The notes beneath the pieces are model-generated. The model did not search any database. It was not told the DNA's origin and worked only from the letters and a program-made list of their open reading frames with translations. A stretch of 25,925 nucleotides of DNA, from positions 1-25,925 of the IMG/VR virus record IMGVR_UViG_3300035182_000301; one strand, given 5' to 3'. This document shows positions 432-25,884 of this stretch, in pieces. Made by a program: the position numbers and the translations under genes. Every line of letters starts with the position of its first letter. Positions within the stretch are counted from its first letter, which is position 1. This stretch comes from a virus.

Positions 432-443
432 AGGAAAATGATC

Positions 444-680
444 ATGACAACACAAAAAGACCAAGTCGCAACACAAGCTCGCCACCTTATTAGCCGAAGG
501 GATGTAGTAATGGCTACTCGCATCAGTCGGTCAATGATCTATCTCAAGCTCGACCCCAATTCAAAACAGTACGATCCAGATTTTCCCAAGCCGGTGCAGG
601 TCGGGTTAAGATCGGTTGGCTGGTATTCGGATGAAATCCAGAACTGGATCGACACCCGCCCTCGCGCAAATTCTGCCTAA
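444..680 (+). CDS. AlpA-family DNA-binding regulator
   Basis: The protein carries a helix-turn-helix of the AlpA/excisionase (MerR-like winged helix) type across almost its full length: LISRRDVVMATRISRSMIY, then DFPKPVQVG, then VGWYSDEIQNWIDTRP. The FPKPVQ and W-x3-EI-x-NW-I pattern is diagnostic of AlpA proteins, which are phage or satellite transcriptional activators or excisionase-like factors. I prefer ATG 444 (78 residues) to ATG 438, because the AAGGA at 431-435 is 8 nt from 444 but only 2 nt from 438. The stop codon lies in the loop of a strong inverted repeat (656-690). It may regulate the early operon or an excision step, but no integrase is visible in the window. Confidence 0.85.
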   Translation: MTTQKDQVATQARHLISRRDVVMATRISRSMIYLKLDPNSKQYDPDFPKPVQVGLRSVGWYSDEIQNWIDTRPRANSA

Positions 681-690
681 GCGAGGGCGG
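656..690 (+). promoter_or_regulatory. Perfect 10-bp inverted repeat over a ribosome binding site
   Basis: CCGCCCTCGC (656-665) and GCGAGGGCGG (681-690) are exact reverse complements separated by 15 nt. The loop holds the AlpA stop codon and the right arm holds the purine-rich GAGGGCGG just upstream of ATG 695. No T-tract follows, so it is not a canonical intrinsic terminator. A translational switch that masks the ribosome binding site, or an RNA processing site, fits better; that role is inference. Confidence 0.6.
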
Positions 691-694
691 AATC

Positions 695-871
695 ATGGAC
701 GATCAAGAAGAACGGGATGATGGCGCACTGGAATGGTGGGAACAGGCTGGAAGACATCAGATTGGAGAATGGGAAAATGGAAACAAAAGAACAAACAAAA
801 CAGGAAGGACTGGCGCTACTTCGCGCGCCGTTCCCTCCGAATCAGATCAGCAGTCTACCGAAGCCAACTAA
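695..871 (+). CDS. Small acidic hypothetical protein overlapping the Rad52-like gene
   Basis: A 58-residue ORF starting at ATG 695, a few bases after GAGGGCGG. It begins MDDQEERDDGALEWWEQAGR, is acidic and tryptophan-rich in its first half, and becomes polar and low in complexity in its second half. Its last 95 bases overlap the start of the Rad52-like gene in another frame, and the quality of the second half drops there. It could be a real leader-like protein whose translation feeds the downstream start, or a chance ORF. No family is recognised. Confidence 0.4.
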   Translation: MDDQEERDDGALEWWEQAGRHQIGEWENGNKRTNKTGRTGATSRAVPSESDQQSTEAN

Positions 872-1487
872 GGCACAGACGGACGAAGTAAAGGCTAATT
901 TCAAGTCGGGTATTCGCTGCGTAATTTGCGGTGGGTGGCACCATCCGAAAGTGGTGCACCTGGACTACGTCGGACACGCGGCGCTTACCGACCGTCTGCT
1001 CGATGCAGACCCGTTCTGGACGTGGGAGCCATTGGCAATTGGAAATGATGGGTTGCCAGTCATTGATAAAGATGGCGGGTTGTGGATACGCCTCACAGTC
1101 TGCGGGGTGACACGGTTAGGATACGGAGACGCCCAAGGGAAGACAGGCGGTGACGCGATGAAGGAGCGCATTGGGGACGCGCTTCGGAACGCCGCAATGC
1201 GGTTTGGGGCCGCACTGGATTTGTGGCACAAGGGCGATTTACATGTCGCTACGGATGACGATGACGGGAATGTAGGCGCAAAGGCACCTACAAATAAGGC
1301 TAATCCTGAAAACGAGCGAGCCGCGCTTGCAAAAAAACTCAACGCAGCATCTCGGCGTGGTTCTGTCTCGCTACGTGACGCATGGGAAGCGCTGACTCCA
1401 GCGCAACGGCACGAAATGGCGGACATAAAAGATGATCTGAAATCCGCCGCTGCCATGCAAGACGAAGCGATCGCAACACAGGCTTGA
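777..1487 (+). CDS. Rad52-like single-strand annealing recombinase
   Basis: The protein has the hallmark blocks of a phage Rad52/22-type annealing family: LLRAPFPPNQISSLPKP (residues 14-30), HLDYVGHAALTDRLLDADP with WTWEPLA (61-87), GGLWIRLTVCGVTRLGYGDA (100-119), and KERIGDALRNAAMRFGAALDLW (129-150). Such proteins anneal complementary single strands during phage recombination and replication. Between blocks 1 and 2 lies CVICGGWHH...H (C48, C51, H55, H56, H61), a likely metal site. The C-terminal third is charged and probably flexible, as expected for partner binding. ATG 777 is chosen over an upstream ATG at 717 because GGAGA sits 8 nt before it; this gives 236 residues. It leads the recombination/replication group with Gp157 and the helicase. 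Confidence 0.8.
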   Translation: METKEQTKQEGLALLRAPFPPNQISSLPKPTKAQTDEVKANFKSGIRCVICGGWHHPKVVHLDYVGHAALTDRLLDADPFWTWEPLAIGNDGLPVIDKDGGLWIRLTVCGVTRLGYGDAQGKTGGDAMKERIGDALRNAAMRFGAALDLWHKGDLHVATDDDDGNVGAKAPTNKANPENERAALAKKLNAASRRGSVSLRDAWEALTPAQRHEMADIKDDLKSAAAMQDEAIATQA

Positions 1488-1503
1488 AAAAGGATATTGC
1501 ATC

Positions 1504-2010
1504 ATGAGTATCACTCTGTACGACATAGCAGACAAATACACGCAGGCATTCTACGCGCTGGCCGATTCTGATATCGACAACGAAACCATTGACGATACGC
1601 TGGAAGGACTCGAAGGAGAACTGGTAGAGAAGGGTAAAGCAGTTACCGCTTTCTGCCTCAACCTGGATGCCGAAATCGAGGCGATTATATCGGCAGAAAA
1701 GCGCATTTCCGCCAGGCGCAAAGCAATGGAGAACAAGCGCGACAGGCTAAAGGAATACCTGAAACAGAACATGGCGAGGTGCGGAATCAGCGAGATAAAG
1801 GCAAACGATGGATCGTTTGTTGCGAGGCTGTATATCGGGCGCGATGAGTCTGTTGTGATTGACGACGAATCGGCGATCCCGATGGATTTCAAGAGAGAAA
1901 TACCGGCCAGTTACGAACCGGAAAAAATGCTCATCAAGAAGGCGATAAATGATGGATTGGTGGTGCCTGGTGCGCATATCGATAAGAAAGACAGGCTGGA
2001 GATAAAGTGA
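1504..2010 (+). CDS. Siphovirus Gp157-like protein
   Basis: A 168-residue protein that matches the Gp157 family in layout. The N-terminus is a helical region (MSITLYDIADKYTQAFYAL). A long acidic and then basic coiled coil follows at about 40-90, with EIEAIISAEKRISARRKAMENKRDRLKEYL. The C-terminus is a compact beta domain with YIGRDESVVIDDES and IPMDFKREIPASYEPEKMLIKKAINDG. Gp157 proteins accompany phage annealing proteins and helicases; an early report linked the family to phage resistance in streptococci, but the biochemical role is not settled. It lies 16 bp after the Rad52-like gene, and its stop overlaps the GTG start of the helicase (GTGA), so the two are probably translationally coupled. 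Confidence 0.8.
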   Translation: MSITLYDIADKYTQAFYALADSDIDNETIDDTLEGLEGELVEKGKAVTAFCLNLDAEIEAIISAEKRISARRKAMENKRDRLKEYLKQNMARCGISEIKANDGSFVARLYIGRDESVVIDDESAIPMDFKREIPASYEPEKMLIKKAINDGLVVPGAHIDKKDRLEIK

Positions 2011-3392
2011 GTAACTATGTCGAGTTTCTGAAAGGCAAGACGTCAATGCACATCCAATCTGGCATTGATGTTGAACCTATACATGACGGCTTGTTCCCTC
2101 ATCAACGTGCGATGGTCAAATGGGCGCTTCGCCGTGGTCGTGCGGCAATCTTTGCAGATACCGGACTAGGCAAGACGCGCATGGAGATCAGTTTTGCCGA
2201 TACGTTGCATAAAACGATTGGGCGCAATGCGCTTATTCTGGCTCCATTGGCTGTTGCTTCCCAGACAGTCGAAGAAGGCGAAGCAATGGGCGTCTCCATT
2301 AACCATTGCCGTGATGATAGTGATGTGCGGGATGGCATTAACATCATCAACTATGACAGATTGCATTTGATCGACCCTGACAGGTTCGGCATCGTCATTC
2401 CTGATGAGTCCAGCATAATCAAGCATCAAACCGGCAAGACTTTTGCAACCATGCTGGAAATGTTCAGAAACACGCCATACAAGCTGCCATGCACAGCCAC
2501 GCCTGCGCCGAATGATTGGACTGAACTTGGAACGCATGCGGAATTTCTTGGGGTGCGATCTGCAACAGAAATGCTTGCGGAGTTCTTTGTCCATGATGGA
2601 GGAGACACATCGGAGTGGAGACTGAAAGGACATGCTCGTAAAGAATTCTGGCGATGGGTTGCATCGTGGGGTGCGCTTGTACGATCTCCATCTGATCTTG
2701 GTTTTGATGCAACTGCTTATAATCTTCCTCCTCTCAATGTCCACCAGCACACTGTAAGCAGCGATAGCAAACTTCTGGATGGTCATCTGTTCGCAACTGA
2801 GGCGCAAACGCTGATGGAGCGCAGAGAAGCCAGACGTAAAAGCCTATCTCAGCGAGTTAAGGCTTGCGCCGAGATCGTAAACGCGAATAGGGCACCGTGG
2901 ATAGTCTGGTGTGATTTGAATGCGGAGGGAGACGCATTACGCGCGGCCATTCCTGATGCTGTGGAAATCCGAGGGTCAGATGATTCTGACGCGAAAGAAA
3001 AGCGTCTGATTGATTTCGCGCATGGCAAGATTCGCGTGCTAATCACCAAGCCAAGCATCGCCGGTTTCGGATTGAACTGGCAGCACTGTTGCAATATGGC
3101 ATTCGTCGGGGTGACGGATTCCTATGAGGCATATTATCAAGCGGTCAGAAGATCATGGCGTTTTGGACAGAAGAATGCTGTAAATGTCCATATCTTCGCA
3201 TCCGAGCAGGAGGGGTCTGTGGTAAAAAACTTGGAGCGCAAGGAGAAGGACGCTCGCGCCATGGCCGACGCGCTTTCATCGGAAACGCTCGAAGCCATCA
3301 AAGAGAATATTCTGGGATTCAAACGCGAGACAAACACTTACAACACATCCGCGCAAATTGCGGTTCCTAATTTTCTGAGGATTGCATCATGA
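2007..3392 (+). CDS. SNF2-like DEAD/DEAH-box helicase
   Basis: A 461-residue superfamily 2 helicase with both RecA-like lobes complete. LFPHQ lies at 29-33, Walker A DTGLGKT at 51-57, the Walker B variant DESS at 133-136 (the form seen in phage SNF2-like helicases), and motif III TATPAPN at 163-169. Motif V is at 351-359 (IAGFGLNWQ) and the arginine-finger motif VI, QAVRRSWRFGQ, at 378-388. It should couple ATP hydrolysis to translocation on or remodelling of DNA in phage replication or recombination. The start is GTG 2007, overlapping the Gp157 stop. The stop overlaps the ATG of the methyltransferase, so the three genes form one translational unit. No inactivating change is visible. Confidence 0.92.
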   Translation: MSNYVEFLKGKTSMHIQSGIDVEPIHDGLFPHQRAMVKWALRRGRAAIFADTGLGKTRMEISFADTLHKTIGRNALILAPLAVASQTVEEGEAMGVSINHCRDDSDVRDGINIINYDRLHLIDPDRFGIVIPDESSIIKHQTGKTFATMLEMFRNTPYKLPCTATPAPNDWTELGTHAEFLGVRSATEMLAEFFVHDGGDTSEWRLKGHARKEFWRWVASWGALVRSPSDLGFDATAYNLPPLNVHQHTVSSDSKLLDGHLFATEAQTLMERREARRKSLSQRVKACAEIVNANRAPWIVWCDLNAEGDALRAAIPDAVEIRGSDDSDAKEKRLIDFAHGKIRVLITKPSIAGFGLNWQHCCNMAFVGVTDSYEAYYQAVRRSWRFGQKNAVNVHIFASEQEGSVVKNLERKEKDARAMADALSSETLEAIKENILGFKRETNTYNTSAQIAVPNFLRIAS

Positions 3393-4324
3393 ATGTCATC
3401 AATCAAACAGTAACAGAAGACTATGCGCTGTATCACGGCGATTCGTGTGAGGTAATGAAAGGCTTGCCGGATTCAAGCGTAGATTATTCAATATTCTCGC
3501 CCCCGTTCGCATCGCTTTACACCTATTCAAATTCTACCCGCGATCTCGGAAATTCAAGATCAGATGAAGAATTCTTCGCGCATTTCGACTTCATCATTCA
3601 GGAACTACGCCGGGTAATGAAGCCAGGTCATAACGTCAGCTTCCACTGCATGCTTATGCCCACCAGCAAGGAGCGCGATGGCTACATCGGCCTGAAAGAC
3701 TTTCGCGGTGATCTGATTCGCGCATTTCAGCGTCACGGCTTTATTTACGCCAGCGAGGTCTGCATCTGGAAAGATCCGGTGACGGCGATGCAGCGCACCA
3801 AAGCGCTAGGTTTACTGCATAAGACTATTAGGGGCAACGCAACCATGAGCCGTCAGGGCATCCCTGATTATCTGGTTACGATGCGAGCCCCGGGCGAAAT
3901 CGTCGATAGGGTGCGACACTACAGAGACGAAGCAGAACTGTCCGAAGTCTGCGAGGAAGAAGGGAAGGATTGCGCCACTCAGAGTTTAAACGTATTGCCG
4001 GTTCAGGAATGGCAGCAACTAGCCAGCCCGGTATGGATGGATATTAACCCCAGCGAAACGCTCCAGTATCGCAGCGCAAGGGACAATGAAGATGAGCGTC
4101 ATATATGTCCGTTGCAACTCCAAGTCATCGAGCGCGGCATAAAACTATGGACGAATCCTGGCGATGTGGTTTTTTCACCATTCGGAGGGATTGGTTCCGA
4201 GCCTGTAACTGCTCTACGCATGAAAAGAAAGGCCATCGCAATTGAATTAAAGGACAGTTACTACAAGCAGATGGTGCTGAATGTGCAGGCGGCGATGAAA
4301 GATACCGGAGACCTGTTCGCATGA
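3389..4324 (+). CDS. DNA methyltransferase of the N4/N6 (SPPF) type
   Basis: A 311-residue DNA amino-methyltransferase in the beta arrangement: the catalytic motif IV SPPF is at 37-40, and the AdoMet-binding motif I (FSPFGGIGSE, variant of DPFxGxG) follows near 262-271 with AIELKDSYY after it. SPPY/F is the usual catalytic tetrad of N4-cytosine enzymes, though N6-adenine activity cannot be excluded. The stretch at about 45-210 probably includes the target-recognition part. No restriction nuclease is adjacent, so it looks like an orphan phage methylase that protects phage DNA or marks replicated DNA. It is coupled to the helicase by an ATGA overlap, and its own stop overlaps the next ATG in the same way. 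Confidence 0.9.
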   Translation: MNVINQTVTEDYALYHGDSCEVMKGLPDSSVDYSIFSPPFASLYTYSNSTRDLGNSRSDEEFFAHFDFIIQELRRVMKPGHNVSFHCMLMPTSKERDGYIGLKDFRGDLIRAFQRHGFIYASEVCIWKDPVTAMQRTKALGLLHKTIRGNATMSRQGIPDYLVTMRAPGEIVDRVRHYRDEAELSEVCEEEGKDCATQSLNVLPVQEWQQLASPVWMDINPSETLQYRSARDNEDERHICPLQLQVIERGIKLWTNPGDVVFSPFGGIGSEPVTALRMKRKAIAIELKDSYYKQMVLNVQAAMKDTGDLFA

Positions 4325-4548
4325 GCCAAACGAAAACACATAGCCTTATTGAGTCGGCGACAAATATCTTAATCGGATACACCGTGGCGCTGGTTTCTCA
4401 ATTGGTAATCTTCCCGATGTACGGAATTAACATACCACTATCGGACAATATTGCTATCGGCGCGTGGTTCACTGTTGTTTCGCTGGTTAGGAGCTACGTT
4501 ATCCGGCGATGGTTTAACAAAATCACGGTGTCGGCATTGAAGCATTAA
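4321..4548 (+). CDS. Small two-helix membrane protein (DUF7220-like)
   Basis: A 75-residue protein starting at ATG 4321 within the ATGA overlap with the methyltransferase. It has a conserved-looking N-terminus (SLIESATNILIGYTVALVSQ), then IFPMYGINIPLSDNIAIGAWFTVVSLVRSYVIRRWFN. Two hydrophobic helices are visible at about 13-32 and 45-60, with a basic C-terminal end facing the cytoplasm. This layout is very common among small proteins next to phage methyltransferases and replication genes and I recall it as DUF7220, though I could not check. The function of the family is unknown to me. It closes the run of overlapping early genes. Confidence 0.75.
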   Translation: MSQTKTHSLIESATNILIGYTVALVSQLVIFPMYGINIPLSDNIAIGAWFTVVSLVRSYVIRRWFNKITVSALKH

Positions 4549-7511: not shown

Positions 7512-7913
7512 CTAATCAAGCTGTTGGTCGATATACAAGCTGGCCGATCCTACGATTGCCATCTGACGTGTTTCATAGGGTTTATAGTAGGGTGCCGTAG
7601 TTCCTTGTCGAACCTTAATCCGTAGATCATTCTTCGGATCGCCGGATTGATACACCCCTAAATTTATGAGCTGCGTCGTGCTTGCTGCTACTCCAAAGAA
7701 TAGTTGCTGCCCCGTGCTGTAAGCCTCAACGGATATTGCTGAACCCACTACCAGATTGGTTAGCGTCAACGCAAAGTTGCCAATAGAGTCTGTAGGAAGA
7801 CGCCCGTTTGAGACAGCCACCCCTCCGCCAACAGTAAATGGCCCCCTGGTGCTTGGAACTGATAGCGCGTTCGCGTAGCTAAAGTTCATCGGGGCGAATA
7901 CAGCGTTAGCCAT
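7512..7913 (-). CDS. Hypothetical beta-rich virion protein
   Basis: A 133-residue protein starting at ATG 7913, which overlaps the preceding stop (TAATG). It is beta-rich and lacks membrane or coiled segments: FTVGGGVAVSNGRLPTDSI, ALTLTNLVVGSAISVEAYST, QLFFGVAASTTQLINLGVY, DLRIKVRQGTTAPYYKPYET. It ends SLYIDQQLD. The pattern suits a small structural subunit or connector of the large appendage proteins on either side, but I recognise no family. The next gene starts 11 bp downstream. Confidence 0.55.
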   Translation of the reverse strand: MANAVFAPMNFSYANALSVPSTRGPFTVGGGVAVSNGRLPTDSIGNFALTLTNLVVGSAISVEAYSTGQQLFFGVAASTTQLINLGVYQSGDPKNDLRIKVRQGTTAPYYKPYETRQMAIVGSASLYIDQQLD

Positions 7914-10108
7914 TATGTAATGCTTGTGTCAGGGTCGATAAACAGCACTTGCTGCACGTTTGCTACTGATGTCCCAATATGCACCTGAGCGATGATCTCG
8001 CATCCAGAAGCCATGTCATGTCCCGCTGGAGTGCTTAGCACGAATTTATACCTGTCAAAATTGATCGTCCCGCCAGATATAAATGTTGCTTTGGTTCCAT
8101 TCCACGTTGACCATCCGGTGTTCGTCGATGGTGTTAATGCTGCGGCAGGGAAAATCTGGCGAGTCGTTAAGTACACGGCCCGTCCACTGGTGTCAGTGTA
8201 ATTCAGCTCCATCCAAAGATTGCTGGTATCAATCCCAGATAGTGTGTCGTTTAGCAGATATTCCAGGGTAATTGTTCTTGCCCCATTAGCGAGCGAATTG
8301 ATCTTCGATATGCGTGGGCTAGAGTGCGGTCTACCTGTTGATGTTTGGCCTGGAATTGTGCTGGAGAGGAATTTAATGCTCCAAGGGGTCACCCCGTCAA
8401 GCAGCGTAGCACTAAGCGTTGGAAAGCCCAGCCCAGAAATCCAGTCGCTCTTGCCGCGTAGGGTGTTTATCTGGAAATCTCTGGTTGCAGCGCTAGAAAA
8501 TATTGATACTGTTCGGTACAGGGTGTTGTTAATACTGTTTGCATACGCTGATGCGATTGGATCAAACGCAAAAGCATTGCCGAGATCAGCATTGATAATC
8601 AAGATGTTGCCATTCCCTATACCGCTGGGGCTTATTACTGATTTAGAGCCAACGAGACAGTTGATAGCTTTAATCCCATTGATGAATAGATCATTGTTTG
8701 TATTATTAGAACAATTTATCAGTCCTGTGTGCGGTGCAGTTGCCCCAGAATTGTCAAATACAAGGTTACGGATCGTTGCTGAGCAGTAAGCGATCCCCAA
8801 GTCGTATATGTAATGTGACGTATTGCTGAACGACATAAAAATATCGTCAAACATAACACCTGTGCCCGCATCTGCCGAGGTAGAAACAGTTAATTGTGCA
8901 TAAATGCCAGTATTGCTTTGGTAGTCGGTGTAAAATCCTACACCTTTCGCGTAACAATTATTTGAAAAAGTCCAGACAAAATATGCATTATTAGTTATAG
9001 CGGAGTTTGTGTTATGGAATTGTAAATTAGGTAGCCCTGTTGAATTTACTTTCCCGATAATTCTTGTGGCTTTGTGGCTAACCAGGGAAAGTGAGTGAGC
9101 TAGGCTATTATCGGGAACCCAATTAACTCTAAACACTGGATCGGGCGCGTCAGCGTTCCAAGCTGGGACATTAGTCCCATCATCAAAAATGATATTGGTC
9201 GGTAGCGCCGCCGTGCTAAAAGTTGTCGGTGGGGCTAAATAGTAATTCGAGTTGTAGCAATACAGAATCTTATTAGAGCGCACATAAACGTTGTCTCCAG
9301 GATACACCGACCCAAGAAACGGTTGCGTCGCTCCAAATAACCCGTAGTTTGCAACAGCAATGGCGCTGGGCCACATGACATAGGTATTGAACAACCATCC
9401 CCATGCGCCGGATGCCCCACCCGCAAACTGTACTACAGTAGGCGCGGTGCCCCACCCTGACGAAGAGATCGCCATATAACTGTTGTTTGCATAGTTCGCG
9501 TTGATACTGCCCTGGCGGGTCATGATATTGACGACTGATCCGCTTGCAGATGCAAATATAACGTTACGCAATTGCGTGAGCGTTGCCGAAACATTCGCAC
9601 CAACCGCACCAGTTGCAGCATTGAGCGCGGTCGCAATATTCGTCGCCTGGGCATTAACGTCTGAGCCTACGTTAAACTGCGTAGACGTGGCGCCGGAAGA
9701 AACCGCAGTGAGTGTTACCCCTGCAATGGTTATGGTATTTCCTGCTGCGGCTACAGCATTTATTGTCAACGAAGCCAGTGCTGGGGTTGCCTTTCCTGTA
9801 GCAAGGCCGTCACCATCTTGAGCAACACCCCAAGCAGGCATTGCTATACTCGGATTGCCATTCGTGCTTGTTAGTGTCGTGCTCGATAAGGTAAACGAGT
9901 TATTGAGGTTATAGGTTCCCGCTCCTCCCAGCCCAGTACCAAGCGACGTGATAAAAGTACCAGCAGGCACACCGACACCAGTTACAGCCGAACCAACACC
10001 GATAATACCTGATGTCACCGCGGACACGGTTAAGGTGTAGTTAGAAACAGAGCCAGTAAATGTCGAGTTTATGGCGTACAGATAATGGTCGAGATACTTG
10101 TTAGCCAT
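7913..10108 (-). CDS. Large fibre- or spike-like virion protein
   Basis: A 731-residue protein, the largest in the window. Residues about 16-80 form a module (FTGSVSNYTLTVSAVTSGII, GVGSAVTGVGVPAGTFITSLG, AGTYNLNNSFTLSSTTLTST) that recurs in phage tail-fibre and structural proteins. Next comes a segment rich in Ala and Thr (about 110-220), then a long stretch of Asn/Ser/Tyr-rich short strands that looks like a right-handed beta-helix, and a C-terminal beta domain. The middle of the gene is visibly richer in A+T than the tail genes upstream. A receptor-binding or head-fibre role is possible. The start overlaps the preceding gene by 8 bp. Confidence 0.65.
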   Translation of the reverse strand: MANKYLDHYLYAINSTFTGSVSNYTLTVSAVTSGIIGVGSAVTGVGVPAGTFITSLGTGLGGAGTYNLNNSFTLSSTTLTSTNGNPSIAMPAWGVAQDGDGLATGKATPALASLTINAVAAAGNTITIAGVTLTAVSSGATSTQFNVGSDVNAQATNIATALNAATGAVGANVSATLTQLRNVIFASASGSVVNIMTRQGSINANYANNSYMAISSSGWGTAPTVVQFAGGASGAWGWLFNTYVMWPSAIAVANYGLFGATQPFLGSVYPGDNVYVRSNKILYCYNSNYYLAPPTTFSTAALPTNIIFDDGTNVPAWNADAPDPVFRVNWVPDNSLAHSLSLVSHKATRIIGKVNSTGLPNLQFHNTNSAITNNAYFVWTFSNNCYAKGVGFYTDYQSNTGIYAQLTVSTSADAGTGVMFDDIFMSFSNTSHYIYDLGIAYCSATIRNLVFDNSGATAPHTGLINCSNNTNNDLFINGIKAINCLVGSKSVISPSGIGNGNILIINADLGNAFAFDPIASAYANSINNTLYRTVSIFSSAATRDFQINTLRGKSDWISGLGFPTLSATLLDGVTPWSIKFLSSTIPGQTSTGRPHSSPRISKINSLANGARTITLEYLLNDTLSGIDTSNLWMELNYTDTSGRAVYLTTRQIFPAAALTPSTNTGWSTWNGTKATFISGGTINFDRYKFVLSTPAGHDMASGCEIIAQVHIGTSVANVQQVLFIDPDTSIT

Positions 10109-20769: not shown

Positions 20770-22617
20770 TCAGCGCAGCGCCGACGTGAGAGACGGATTG
20801 TTCAAGCCAAGCCCCCACATGATCTGATTCGGGCCGGATGGTGGTTTGGCGGCAGCGGTTGCTTGCCAGTTTGTGACAGACTCTGCAACCTTTTTACCGT
20901 CCAGATGCACGTGTGTATGAATCTCATGCTGGCTTTTTTCTGGGCCGGGCGGCAAATAACGTGATGCCGCCATAATATCAGAATCAGTAATCGGAACACC
21001 CGACGCCATCTTTGGCGATCTCGTCATTGACGCCATTGTCGACGCCAGGCCAGTTTTTGGCGCAAGATTATTTGCCGCAACGTTTTCTGCGAAGCTGAGT
21101 GGCTTTTTCTGATCGCCCGTCAGCCATTTATAAGCACCATAAACCGCCGCCCCTGCGGCGGCAAGACCAGCAAGGACAAGCACCACCGGGCCGAGCGCCG
21201 TGGCAACAGCACCAGCGCCTGCGGCAAGCGCAGGGAACGCTATCGAAATAATGCCGAGCGAAGCGACGAAACTTGTAACCGTGCCGACTACTGCCAGCAA
21301 TGCCCCGATCGCAGCAAAGAATCCGACGAATAGTTTTAGCGCGGTTGGATGAGCTTGAGCGGTGTTGACGATGGATTGGATGAACTCAACGATTTTGGGT
21401 AGCACGGTTAAGATCAGGGGGACAAGCTGCAAGCCGACGACTGTTTTCAGCGCATTCATGCGGGCGTGAATCGCCTTTTCTTGCATGGAAGGCGACATCT
21501 TCATGATTTCGCTGTAATTGTTGATACCCTTGGTGTCTTCAATCAACTTGCGGTCGCGCTGGAATTTCCAGTATTGCTCGGCCATCTGCACGCCCATAAA
21601 GCCGGCGGTTCGATTCTGGAAAAGATAGCTGATCGCCTGAACCTGCGATTGTCGGTCGGTGATCCCTGCCTTTTGCAGCGCTGGCATTAGGTAGGACTGT
21701 ACCCAATCGACCGGGTTTGACATGAAATCACGCCATCCTTTGATTCCGCCAGGCTCGACACCGCGCATCATATGGCTCTTCGTCCAGACAACCTTGCTTG
21801 GGTCAACGAGTCCGAGTTTTTGGAACATGCCGAGCGATTTCTGCGCCACGGTGCCCTGCACAATAGCCGCATACATGGACATCAGCGGATTCCCTGGGCC
21901 GCCTGTAGCGCCGCCCGATCCACCGCGAGACTTCATTTCCTGAATCAGAGTCGGAAGATAAAACTCGATGAATTCTTTGCTCCACCCCTGCGCCGCCGTG
22001 CGTCCATATTTGACGGCAGAGAGATAATCCGCGGCCTGTACCTTTCCACCGGATGCGATGATGCCTTTAGTGATCGCGTCGGCATAGCTGTTGAACATTT
22101 CCGGCGTCTTGGTTGCACCGATCATTTCCAGCGTTTTCGCAATCTCATAGGACTGATCGCCTTTCAGCCCGGCGTTGTTCAACACGCCTTCCATCCTGAG
22201 CACGGTTGGCAAGTTTTTAATGGCGTCTGCGGTGTCTCCAAACACCATGCGCAGGTGCATAATTGTGTCCAGCGCCTCGGTCGGGCTGGACGTGGGCACA
22301 GACCGGCCCACCGCCCACGCGGCCTTTTCGGCTGAACGCATGTCAGAAGGCGTCAATCCCATCTGCTTCATGCGTGCGATGCGCTGCTGATACTGCATTG
22401 CGGCATCAATGGACGGCTTTAGGGACGCCAGGATGCCGACACCGGCAGTGGCTGCGCCAAGGCCAATGCCGCCTAGCGCCTTGAATCGCGCCATCTTCGC
22501 CTGTAAGGTATCCACCTCACGCGAAACGGTGCGAAAATGCCCGGACATTGCCAACAGCCCGGCTGTTACACCGTCCAGCAAGGACAGTTTTATGCCGATC
22601 TTGTATGCCTCGAACAT
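20770..22617 (-). CDS. Tail tape measure protein
   Basis: A 615-residue tape measure that sets tail length. The N-terminus (MFEAYKIGIKLSLLDGVTAG) is followed by helical, polar sequence with RIARMKQMGLTPSDMRSAEK. Hydrophobic segments at about 400-530 include LKLFVGFFAAIGALLAVVGT, GIISIAFPALAAGAGAVATA and VVLVLAGLAAAGAAVYGAYK. I start it at ATG 22617, with AGGA 6 nt before it, and not at 22650, because the extra 11 residues have no ribosome binding site. At the usual ratio of about 0.15 nm per residue the tail would be roughly 90 nm; that is an estimate. The facing + strand gene starts 11 bases from it. Confidence 0.88.
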   Translation of the reverse strand: MFEAYKIGIKLSLLDGVTAGLLAMSGHFRTVSREVDTLQAKMARFKALGGIGLGAATAGVGILASLKPSIDAAMQYQQRIARMKQMGLTPSDMRSAEKAAWAVGRSVPTSSPTEALDTIMHLRMVFGDTADAIKNLPTVLRMEGVLNNAGLKGDQSYEIAKTLEMIGATKTPEMFNSYADAITKGIIASGGKVQAADYLSAVKYGRTAAQGWSKEFIEFYLPTLIQEMKSRGGSGGATGGPGNPLMSMYAAIVQGTVAQKSLGMFQKLGLVDPSKVVWTKSHMMRGVEPGGIKGWRDFMSNPVDWVQSYLMPALQKAGITDRQSQVQAISYLFQNRTAGFMGVQMAEQYWKFQRDRKLIEDTKGINNYSEIMKMSPSMQEKAIHARMNALKTVVGLQLVPLILTVLPKIVEFIQSIVNTAQAHPTALKLFVGFFAAIGALLAVVGTVTSFVASLGIISIAFPALAAGAGAVATALGPVVLVLAGLAAAGAAVYGAYKWLTGDQKKPLSFAENVAANNLAPKTGLASTMASMTRSPKMASGVPITDSDIMAASRYLPPGPEKSQHEIHTHVHLDGKKVAESVTNWQATAAAKPPSGPNQIMWGLGLNNPSLTSALR

Positions 22618-22627
22618 GGAGATTCCT

Positions 22628-22870
22628 ATGAAAAATTGGCCGTTCCCCACGCAGGGGAATCAGCGTCCGTGGTGGCTGACGCCATTGGGTTTGTTTGCAA
22701 CGACTGCTGCCATCATCCTGGTGCCGATCATCCTGCTGCTGCTGGCGCTGACCGGGTTATTCGTTTGGGCGATGTGGAACAGCGGAGGCGTGGGAATGTT
22801 TATTGCCGCTTTCGTCGTGGTCGGACTGGTGTTCATTCTTGCGGCAATCTGGGCAGCGATGCGGTCTTGA
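22628..22870 (+). CDS. Two-helix membrane protein, antisense in the tail operon
   Basis: An 80-residue protein on the + strand, while everything around it is on the - strand. ATG 22628 is preceded by GGAGA at a 5-6 nt spacing. It begins MKNWPFPTQGNQRPWW, then a long hydrophobic stretch (about 19-48, LGLFATTAAIILVPIILLLL), and a second one (about 55-77, VGMFIAAFVVVGLVFILAAI). Codon use is of a real gene (CTG, GCG, ATC), and the - strand here holds only short broken frames. Its end overlaps the end of the gp10-like gene by 38 bp. Form resembles a holin or a moron-type membrane protein, but no family is recognised and the function is unknown. Confidence 0.6.
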   Translation: MKNWPFPTQGNQRPWWLTPLGLFATTAAIILVPIILLLLALTGLFVWAMWNSGGVGMFIAAFVVVGLVFILAAIWAAMRS

Positions 22871-23309
22871 TCGCGCCGCCCAGGAAGGCGATTTGCACGC
22901 TCTCGCCCACTAGCTTGAGCACGTCCTGCGTCTTGCGCGATGCCGCCAGTCCAAGCACAGAACGCGGCGGGATCGTGCGCGTACCCAACTCCTGATAAAC
23001 CATCACGTCACTATCTGATCCCACCACGGCCTCAAGGCCGTGGACTTCGCGCGAGATGGAATTGCGCAAGTCTCCCGTTCGCAGTAGCGGATCATTCGGG
23101 GTGAACCCTAGTCGCACGCGCTCTTGCTTGGTGGCGTCCTTGAGTTCCGCCCATGGCTGAAACGGCCCCATGTCAGATCGCTGATACGTTCCGATCTCGG
23201 CTTTGGCCTCGCGCTCAATAGCAGCCGCCGCGGCATCAAGGGCGATGGATGCCACCGCAGGGATCGCCCGCGTTTCCAACATACGGGCAAACTGCTTGAG
23301 TTCCATCAT
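22833..23309 (-). CDS. HK97 gp10-like tail completion/joining protein
   Basis: A 158-residue protein with the gp10-like arrangement: a first helix (MMELKQFARMLETRAIPAVA), then DAAAAAIEREAKAEIGTYQR, GPFQPWAELKDATKQERVRL with PNDPLLRTGDLRNSISREVH (the P-L-x-R-T-G-x-L-R-x-S-I signature), then DVMVYQELGTRTIPPRSVLG (a Y-x-E-x-G-T-R-x-x-P-x-R-x pattern) and a final helix. I start it at ATG 23309, overlapping the stop of the frameshift product, since the longer frame to 23378 is part of that product's region. Such proteins complete or join the tail and head. Its place before the tape measure is unusual. Confidence 0.8.
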   Translation of the reverse strand: MMELKQFARMLETRAIPAVASIALDAAAAAIEREAKAEIGTYQRSDMGPFQPWAELKDATKQERVRLGFTPNDPLLRTGDLRNSISREVHGLEAVVGSDSDVMVYQELGTRTIPPRSVLGLAASRKTQDVLKLVGESVQIAFLGGAIKTASLPRLPQE

Positions 23310-23814
23310 GGCTTGTCCTCGAAGCGCATCGTCTGGGTGTTGAACTTGTGTCCCTGAAACTCGCTGAAAATAACGCACATTGCAGCTCGTTCCACGTCAT
23401 CGAGATTCATCGCAACATCCCACGGTACGCCGTTGTTCACCAGCCAGAGCGCTTCCTTGATGGCCGTGAAGCCTAGGGCTTTTTTATAGCCTCTCCGGCG
23501 TCCTCTTGCCTGACAAAGTTCTGCTGGATACCTTTCGCAAGCGCTTCCAAACCTTCTTCGTCCAACTTCTGAATGGCTGCGTCCAATTCGCGCTGATTGG
23601 AGAAGTTCACCACCTCGCCATCAATGGACTGGAGATACAGCAGCGGCATGACCATTGAGAGATAAGTTTGATTGCTCGAAGCGTCCGCCCCAAGCATGCG
23701 AACGAGCTGGTACTGCGCCAGCACGTTAGGTTTCCGCAGCGTCAGCACGCGCCCACGCGCATCCGTCACTTGCGCGTCAGCACTCTTTGCCTGCACATCA
23801 ACGACTTTAGCCAT
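23306..23814 (-). CDS. Tail chaperone -1 frameshift product (GT-like)
   Basis: Ribosomes that slip back one base at A AAA AAG (23485-23479) read past the zero-frame stop. The product then has 112 residues from the short gene plus 57 new ones: ALGFTAIKEALWLVNNGVPW, then DVAMNLDDVERAAMCVIFSE and FQGHKFNTQTMRFEDKP, ending at TGA 23308-23306. The extension has a clear protein signature (VPWDVA...LDDVERAA), matching the second domain of phage tail chaperones, yet it has no start of its own. It should bind the tape measure and tube during tail assembly. The stop overlaps the gp10-like ATG, as expected for a functional unit. Confidence 0.85.
23473..23814 (-). CDS. Tail assembly chaperone, short form (G-like, Mu gp41-like)
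   Basis: A 113-residue protein in the position of Mu gp41, between tube and tape measure. The N-terminus (MAKVVDVQAKSADAQVTDAR) is beta-rich, followed by LTLRKPNVLAQYQLVRMLGA and a helical part with YLSMVMPLLYLQSIDGEVVN. The chain ends AGEAIKKP. It should coat the tape measure before the tube polymerises and be lost from the finished tail. ATG 23814 overlaps the tube stop (TAATG). The slippery heptamer lies five codons from the end. Confidence 0.85.
   Translation of the reverse strand: MAKVVDVQAKSADAQVTDARGRVLTLRKPNVLAQYQLVRMLGADASSNQTYLSMVMPLLYLQSIDGEVVNFSNQRELDAAIQKLDEEGLEALAKGIQQNFVRQEDAGEAIKKP
23479..23485 (-). promoter_or_regulatory. Programmed -1 frameshift site A AAA AAG
   Basis: On the - strand the codons are ATA AAA AAG CCC TAG, so the heptamer A AAA AAG is in the X XXY YYZ register. 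A AAA AAG is a very slippery sequence in bacteria. The stop TAG comes one codon after it. In the shifted frame reading continues for 57 codons. A small possible stem (AAGCC/GGCTT, loop CTA) overlaps its 3' edge; I see no strong pseudoknot by eye. Confidence 0.85.
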
Positions 23815-24248
23815 TAGGACACCTTCACGCGCTGCGATGCGACAACATCAACGGACTGGCCTACCTTATCGTCGCCCTTCCATGTGCCCATTTTGGTCGG
23901 CACGATCTGCACGCCGGTGTAGTGGTAGGTGTTCACGCTGCCGTCCACTTCGGATATGCTCTCCACGATGGTGCCGCCCGGGATTGTCGAGCCGTTGGCG
24001 TAGAAAGCAGCCTCGAAAGCCGCATAAAAATCATCAAGCTGCGAACTGTTGCGGTCGAATTGCAGTGTGCCTTTCCACCCCTGCGGGAATATCAAGTGTG
24101 TAGGCGTGCCATTTATCGGCACGATCATTTCGGTTTTTGTGACAGGCTCGAAAGACGCCTCGATCAAATTTATGGTGGAGACTTTGCCGTTTGGCAGCGT
24201 CATTTGCAGGCTGTAATCCCTGCCTGTGTTGAATCCATTTAGTGGCAT
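23814..24248 (-). CDS. Tail tube protein (Mu M-like)
   Basis: A 144-residue protein with the usual tail-tube layout: GRDYSLQMTLPNGKVSTINL and IEASFEPVTKTEMIVPINGT first, then HLIFPQGWKGTLQFDRNSSQ, LDDFYAAFEAAFYANGSTIP, and SISEVDGSVNTYHYTGVQIV, KMGTWKGDDKVGQSVDVVAS. This pattern (GW-x-G-x-x-x-x-R, then DGS, Y-x-Y-x-G-V) marks the Mu-like inner tube. Hexamer rings of it stack inside the sheath. GGAG lies 8 nt before ATG 24248. Two terminators separate it from the sheath gene, so its transcription probably depends on read-through or a promoter of its own. Confidence 0.88.
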   Translation of the reverse strand: MPLNGFNTGRDYSLQMTLPNGKVSTINLIEASFEPVTKTEMIVPINGTPTHLIFPQGWKGTLQFDRNSSQLDDFYAAFEAAFYANGSTIPGGTIVESISEVDGSVNTYHYTGVQIVPTKMGTWKGDDKVGQSVDVVASQRVKVS

Positions 24249-24339: not shown

Positions 24340-25884
24340 TTACTGCGGCGAGTTGGATGTAACGGTCACGCTGCCGCCGCCTTCCATGTTCACGACAAAG
24401 AAGCGGACGGTGTTAAGATATTTAACCTTAACATCGGCCTGCAAGTATCCAAGCGCCACTCGGGCGGGTGTGTTATTGTTGGCGTCTACCTGCACGCTGA
24501 ACGCGCCTTGCGCCACGGGGTTGTTCGGGTCTCCAATCCACCCCTGCTGGTATTGCGACAGCAGGAATCCGTCGAGTCCACCCTTGACCTGTTTGCGCAA
24601 GTCGGCAGTCTGCGGCTGACCGACCACCGCACCGAGGGACGATTGCGCTAGGCTGAACGCCAGGTAATTCGTCATCTTGGTGTAGGTGTCATCGTTCTGC
24701 GTCGGATTGCTGGCCGTGTTCAGGCCAGTGCGCGCCGAGAAATACGGGCCGCCGGGGGAGTTCGCCGCCAGCACATCGAGCCTGGACGTAAACACCTGCT
24801 GAATCTCTGCGCTGCTGTAGGGAATCTGCGTCTGGCTGCGCTGCGTGGCAATCATCGTCGCCAGCGGCTTATTGAGGTTGCTGTAGGGCGGAATCAGCGA
24901 GGCGGACTGTGCGGCGCTCCATGTTGCGGGGGAAAGCATGCGCTGCACGCCGTTGTACGAGTCGTAGAAATAGCCCCAATCTCCCACCAGCACCTTGATG
25001 CCATAGCCGTCCACGCCAGCCGATACCAAAGCCGCGGCGCTGGCCGTGATGCTGGTGCTGGGCGGGTTCGCGGCATGGGCATATGCACCGATCTGCTCGG
25101 CAAAAGTAAGCATGCCAGGCCAGTGTGTCGAGGTGGTGTGATCCAGCAAAGTAAAGTTACTGGCATTGGAGCCGCGCAGCGCATACATGCCGGTGCGCGT
25201 GGTGCCGTCCGATCCAAGCAGCATCGTATCTGTCACGTTCGATGCGCCGTCCGAGCCGCCCGTCATGGTGTAGGCCGTGAGGTTGGGTGTGCCAGTTCCA
25301 GCGCCTGCGGCGGCGTGAACGATGGCAGACGGGCCGCGAACGCCATTCTGTCCGTTATTGACGGCATTCGCAGCGTTCACATACAGCGCGTTTCCTGAGC
25401 CGGTCAGATTGTCGAAGATTTCCTGGGTGTAGCCAGCGCGCTGAATAACCAACTTGTAGCTGTTCGCGGCGGTGCCGGTAGCAAACTGCGCGGTGATCGT
25501 GTTGCCAACGATGCCGGAATACAGGGCGGACAGAATCAGCGCTGCGACAGGCGTAGTTTCCGTGTCCATCATGGTCACGGTCGCGGCAACATCAGTGCCG
25601 TCCGTCACACGAACCGCGGCAATCTGCGTCACGCCCTCGCCGAATGCCAGCGTGCAAGCGGTTGCCAGATCATGCGATCGCACCGTCATGTTTCCCAGCG
25701 ACTGAGCGGCAGTCTGAGGAGATCCGATAACCATCGGCGCATTGACAGGCCCCCATGAAGCCACCCCGACCAGGCCGAGGATGCCGGTCGGGATGCCGTT
25801 GATAAGGATCGTACGCGGCGGAACGATGTTGACGTAGAGGTCGGGCGCTTGCGGCAGCGATTGGCCGAATTGATAAACTGGCAT
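24340..25884 (-). CDS. Contractile tail sheath protein (Mu L-like)
   Basis: A 514-residue sheath protein. The N-terminus MPVYQFGQSLPQAPDLYVNI, RTILINGIPTGILGLVGVAS and WGPVNAPMVIGSPQTAAQSL match Mu L-type sheaths. A variable surface domain sits in the middle (about 100-260). The conserved C-terminal part includes PLATMIATQRSQTQIPYSSA, PGGPYFSARTGLNTASNPTQ with NDDTYTKMTNYLAFSLAQSS (about 375-425), and VKVKYLNTVRFFVVNMEGG near the end. It stacks around the tube and contracts. AGGA is 7-8 nt before ATG 25884. The stop is followed by tandem terminators. Confidence 0.93.
   Translation of the reverse strand: MPVYQFGQSLPQAPDLYVNIVPPRTILINGIPTGILGLVGVASWGPVNAPMVIGSPQTAAQSLGNMTVRSHDLATACTLAFGEGVTQIAAVRVTDGTDVAATVTMMDTETTPVAALILSALYSGIVGNTITAQFATGTAANSYKLVIQRAGYTQEIFDNLTGSGNALYVNAANAVNNGQNGVRGPSAIVHAAAGAGTGTPNLTAYTMTGGSDGASNVTDTMLLGSDGTTRTGMYALRGSNASNFTLLDHTTSTHWPGMLTFAEQIGAYAHAANPPSTSITASAAALVSAGVDGYGIKVLVGDWGYFYDSYNGVQRMLSPATWSAAQSASLIPPYSNLNKPLATMIATQRSQTQIPYSSAEIQQVFTSRLDVLAANSPGGPYFSARTGLNTASNPTQNDDTYTKMTNYLAFSLAQSSLGAVVGQPQTADLRKQVKGGLDGFLLSQYQQGWIGDPNNPVAQGAFSVQVDANNNTPARVALGYLQADVKVKYLNTVRFFVVNMEGGGSVTVTSNSPQ

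Follow-up and report, generated by a model that had tools for sequence, protein, structure and literature searches.

A short gene in a viral tail operon is overlapped at its end by an open reading frame that begins with no start codon of its own. The question raised by this locus is whether ribosomes join the two frames to make a second, longer protein, and what such a pair of proteins might do. The window considered here is the whole stretch of DNA that was analysed, comprising 25,925 nucleotides (IMG/VR virus record IMGVR_UViG_3300035182_000301, positions 1 to 25,925). We believe that the virus is very likely a phage with a contractile tail and that the gene encodes its frameshifting tail assembly chaperone, whose short and long products would arise from the slippery heptamer A AAA AAG.

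The slippery site and its two frames

The following features were read directly from the sequence, and the long product is inferred from it by simple arithmetic.

23473..23814, minus strand: putative gene for the short (G-like) form of the tail assembly chaperone, with 113 codons and a TAG
23479..23485, minus strand: in-register slippery heptamer (A AAA AAG), separated from the zero-frame stop by one codon
23473..23475, minus strand: zero-frame stop TAG that closes the short product
23306..23479, minus strand: -1 frame extension (putative T-like domain) of 57 codons, the first being GCC, followed by TGA (23308-23306)
23306..23814, minus strand: predicted frameshift product of 169 residues (112 + 57)

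On the minus strand, the zero frame around the site reads ..GAG GCT ATA AAA AAG CCC TAG, and the short protein accordingly ends in ..GEAIKKP. The first -1 codon past the slip is GCC (23479-23477), and the 57 codons that start at 23479 encode ALGFTAIKEALWLVNNGVPWDVAMNLDDVERAAMCVIFSEFQGHKFNTQTMRFEDKP. This frame is already open 145 nt upstream of the zero-frame stop and ends in ..CCATGA, such that its TGA overlaps the start codon (ATG, 23309) of the gene that follows. The original prediction had placed an A AAA AAG in the correct register one codon from the stop, and this is exact to the base, as are the 57-codon open -1 frame, its end in the ATGA of the next gene and the 169-residue length of the long product. 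Equally accurate was the claim that the extension has no start of its own. No ATG, GTG or TTG precedes the extension domain in the -1 frame of the window, and the earliest in-frame GTG is codon 14, which falls within the domain.

We propose that most ribosomes would terminate at the TAG to yield the 113-residue short (G-like) protein, and that in a minority the two lysyl-tRNAs on A AAA AAG would re-pair one base back. Such slipped ribosomes would read 57 codons more and thereby produce a long (GT-like) protein of 169 residues that ends in a T-like domain. In the lambda model, the short form occupies the tape measure and the long form recruits the tube (PMC5009743). By analogy, many short copies and few long ones might line the tape measure protein, the recruitment of tube subunits might fall to the scarcer long form, and the chaperone copies would then leave. 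Extrapolating from lambda and P2, we would expect the two products to occur in a fixed ratio and each of them to be required.

Conservation of the site and constraint on the extension

The close relatives of the short gene comprise nine viral contigs, and in all of them (9/9) it is the -1 frame that encodes the extension. Their heptamers are A AAA AAG (six contigs) or A AAA AAA (three), and their zero-frame stops vary among TAG, TGA and TAA. A profile search with the extension alone provided 38 viral loci, and further loci in bacterial genomes were reached via phrog_20383, the family of the short gene, to give a family set of 115 loci in 59 clusters (75% amino acid identity). The extension lies in the -1 frame in 56 of the 59 clusters. 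When the site is aligned across these relatives, as the original prediction had suggested, it proves to have been kept or exchanged in 54 of the 56, each of which carries both an open -1 frame and an in-register X XXY YYZ within the overlap. The chance expectation, obtained by resampling the genes' own codons, is 0.68 clusters, and the pattern occurs in one cluster for either wrong register versus 54 for the correct one. Furthermore, most family members located by the short gene alone retain both site and extension.

Eight heptamer types are represented among the 54 clusters, namely A AAA AAC (26 clusters), G GGA AAC (16), A AAA AAG (4), A AAA AAA (3), A AAA AAT (2), and C CCT TTG, C CCT TTA and C CCA AAG (one cluster each). 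The heptamer abuts the zero-frame stop (0 nt) in 41 of these clusters, compared with greater average distances of 26-36 nt in other sets of phage chaperones (PMC10885494).

Selection on the extension follows the same frame. Its pN/pS in the -1 frame is 0.33, 0.41, 0.23 and 0.44 in four groups, versus 0.99-5.8 for the two alternative readings of these bases, and variation is greatest at third codon positions of the -1 frame. Purifying selection acts on the extension in no frame other than -1, and the original prediction of a coding extension is upheld by this constraint on its substitutions (pN/pS 0.23-0.44).

Some loci have a different arrangement. In L048 (4010-4147) and L049 the extension is equipped with an ATG that overlaps the stop codon of the chaperone, and it is an ATG-started overlapping frame in L050 and L105, in each case with no slippery heptamer. 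Judged by their sequences, these loci would represent a two-protein alternative to frameshifting. In another locus (L071) the chaperone is present and a recognisable extension is absent, and in L072 the extension is present and the heptamer is absent; these two are possibly decayed copies.

Several explanations other than ribosomal frameshifting could be offered for the paired frames. The long product might result from transcriptional slippage, wherein RNA polymerase adds or drops an A in the run of six that is present in the window and that reaches seven in some relatives. However, several lineages preserve this arrangement of the two frames around C CCT TTG, C CCT TTA, C CCA AAG or G GGA AAC, which lack a long homopolymer, and heptamers of this kind argue against transcriptional slippage. 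In bacteria, this process has been reported for runs of approximately nine A or T (PMC5009743). Moreover, the X XXY YYZ register is preserved among relatives, and polymerase slippage has no need of register. We therefore view this possibility as very unlikely. The proposal that the extension is a separate small protein, translated from an initiation codon within its frame or through coupled reinitiation, draws on the ATG-started extensions of the four unusual loci noted above and on phage phiKX1, in which the extension is annotated as its own ORF. Nevertheless, the ORF called in phiKX1 has an in-register A AAA AAC upstream of its start, the domain in the window has no start codon ahead of it, and an ATG early enough for initiation is absent in 42 of the 56 clusters. 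Given that the 54 in-register heptamers are also unexplained by chance, we consider a separate protein to be highly improbable.

The frame break might also be attributed to a sequencing error or to a decayed gene. This candidate is refuted by the conserved relatives, in which the identical break is seen repeatedly, in numerous independent contigs and genomes whose stops and heptamers differ, and by the purifying selection on the extension frame, and we assign it next to no probability. Finally, the frameshift could be genuine and the pair could be something other than a tail chaperone. The window protein matches no chaperone family in Pfam, NCBIfam or PHROGs, and its structural match is modest, and both points favour this view. 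Against it stand the tube gene that adjoins the locus, the tape measure gene downstream, the frameshift architecture itself, the identity of the two best solved structural neighbours as chaperones, and a match of one family member to phrog_508, annotated as ‘tail assembly chaperone’. On balance, a different function for the pair appears very unlikely.

Protein folds and tail gene order

The assignment of the gene as a tail assembly chaperone draws on fold, gene order and comparison with known systems. Residues 7-111 of the short protein match phrog_20383 (function unknown; E 7.8e-29), a family that is also matched by 20 of 21 relatives. A tblastn search with the short protein directly against phage records gave no match, and comparison of a sequence profile with the PDB led to nothing. 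The AlphaFold model of the short protein has a pLDDT of 82, and its best solved structural neighbours are modest matches to YqbN (Z 5.6) and HK97 gp13 (Z 5.5), with Foldseek E ~0.3. Both of these proteins are tail assembly chaperones (PMC9603447), and the short product may have a chaperone fold.

The extension is modelled as a small domain of three helices (pLDDT 91), and its conserved core is LVxNG[VI]PWDVA. No family in Pfam, NCBIfam or PHROGs was matched by this domain. Its structural neighbours were limited to a SAP domain (Z 3.0), and its best viral structural match was an uncharacterised 49-residue protein (E 0.07).

The position of the gene is consistent with a chaperone. The tail genes of the window are arranged in the order sheath, tube, two-frame gene, neck-like gene and tape measure, and the genes that flank the two-frame gene are as follows.

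24340..25884, minus strand: tail sheath gene, with a weak Gp18 sheath domain match (E 3e-4)
23814..24248, minus strand: tail tube gene, matching phrog_12993 (no assigned function) and placed by synteny, between sheath and chaperone
22833..23309, minus strand: tail-completion/neck1-like (HK97 gp10-like) gene, matching phrog_26 (E 3.4e-13)
20770..22650, minus strand: tape measure protein gene, matching phrog_28 (E 1.4e-20)

The window sheath has a homologue in the protein annotated as sheath in phage phiKX1 (35% identity, E 5e-59), and homologous sheath and tube genes are each located upstream in 108 of the 115 loci. The neck-like gene separates the extension from the tape measure gene in the window, and it is placed similarly in 44 of the 115 loci. 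Elsewhere in the window, an opposite block on the plus strand (438-4548) carries Sipho_Gp157, helicase and N6/N4 DNA methylase genes and is distinct from the minus-strand tail operon. A 731-residue protein with no Pfam match is encoded downstream of the baseplate genes (7913-10108, minus strand) and is possibly a tail fibre or adhesin.

Known chaperone pairs resemble this locus to differing extents. Phage P2, which likewise has a contractile tail, carries sheath, tube, chaperone with -1 extension (gpE and gpE+E') and tape measure in this order, and its slip occurs near the end of the short gene, as here. However, the P2 slip is annotated within T TTT TTG rather than A AAA AAG, and hhalign detects no similarity of P2 gpE or E' to either part (probability <1%). 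Mu gp41 and its frameshift product (Mu_56) share the tail gene order and positional role of the window pair, although Mu is annotated with a verified -2 shift whereas the window extension is in the -1 frame, and hhalign revealed no convincing similarity between Mu gp41 and the window protein. Unlike the window, with its neck-like gene, P2 and Mu have no gene between extension and tape measure. The lambda gpG/gpGT and HK97 gp13/gp14 systems also combine a short chaperone with a low-level -1 extension that adds a T domain (PMC5009743), and the structure of HK97 gp13 is among the nearest solved to that of the window's short product. In contrast to the phage considered here, lambda and HK97 have long flexible tails, and their sequences are unrelated at the level tested. 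Low mutual sequence similarity is the rule among tail chaperone genes (PMC5009743).

Homologous tube, chaperone and extension sequences are present in the Komagataeibacter xylinus phages phiKX1 and phiKX2, in which A AAA AAC stands in register at the stop. The two phiKX1 frames were deposited as separate hypothetical ORFs, and the word frameshift is absent from the paper on these phages (PMC8566455). The original prediction of a programmed -1 frameshift that generates a G/GT-like chaperone pair is supported by conserved sites with changing heptamers and stops, and also by frame-specific selection, gene order and the modest structural match.

A downstream RNA stem and the reach of the family

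Sequences downstream of the site fold much more stably than their shuffles across the family (mean z -3.4, s.e. 0.28, 54 clusters), and a strong conserved stem is located 6 nt downstream in most relatives that use A AAA AAC or G GGA AAC. Among 40 sequences, 89.8% of stem cells are paired, versus 41-49% when the partners are slid, and double changes are seen in 17 cells versus 5.5 in shuffles. Wobble bases within the stem are mostly near-fixed (GGG in 34/40, GTG in 38/40), whereas most other fourfold sites vary. The stem of one locus (L113) is an almost perfect hairpin of ~21 pairs. By comparison, the A AAA AAG clade to which the window belongs has no such stem, and the window's own downstream sequence has no exceptional structure (z +1.0, +0.1 and +0.8); its slip rate is therefore possibly low. 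Across the family, the signal for a Shine-Dalgarno-like stimulator ahead of the site is marginal at most (mean excess -0.37, s.e. 0.21 kcal/mol).

Of the A-run sites, A_AAA_AAG slips most readily in E. coli, far above A AAA AAC and A AAA AAA (PMC5009743). We tentatively entertain the idea, to which we give somewhat less than an even chance, that the frameshift level is set by two exchangeable parts, site and stem, with the strong A AAA AAG used alone and sites that are weak in E. coli used together with a stem. If true, the family would provide a natural experiment that separates the contributions of site and structure on bacterial ribosomes.

The reach of the family extends well beyond the window. 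Representatives of phrog_20383 were found in 159 of 395 sampled genomes of the order that includes Pseudoroseomonas rhizosphaerae, and in 3 of 398 genomes from a phylum-wide sample; two of these 3 are also among the 395. Among 50,697 deposited phage records, the tail module is present in only phiKX1 and phiKX2. This distribution suggests that prophages of this type are very common in this bacterial order, or possibly that the copies represent domesticated tail particles. The kind of frameshift is itself known, and in the open-licence literature and other sources searched we found no description of the family, of the extension domain or of the diversity of its sites.

With ordinary gene calling the short ORF is found, whereas the extension is overlooked or appears as a truncated ORF. 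What emerges from the joined frames is a large unannotated tail family that is common in acetic-acid-type bacteria. The phrog_20383 family, which is listed as unknown, gains a likely function in tail assembly as a chaperone, and a conserved extension domain that is in no Pfam or PHROG model is uncovered. Furthermore, the diversity of sites and stems within one family constitutes a comparative set for the study of bacterial -1 frameshifting.
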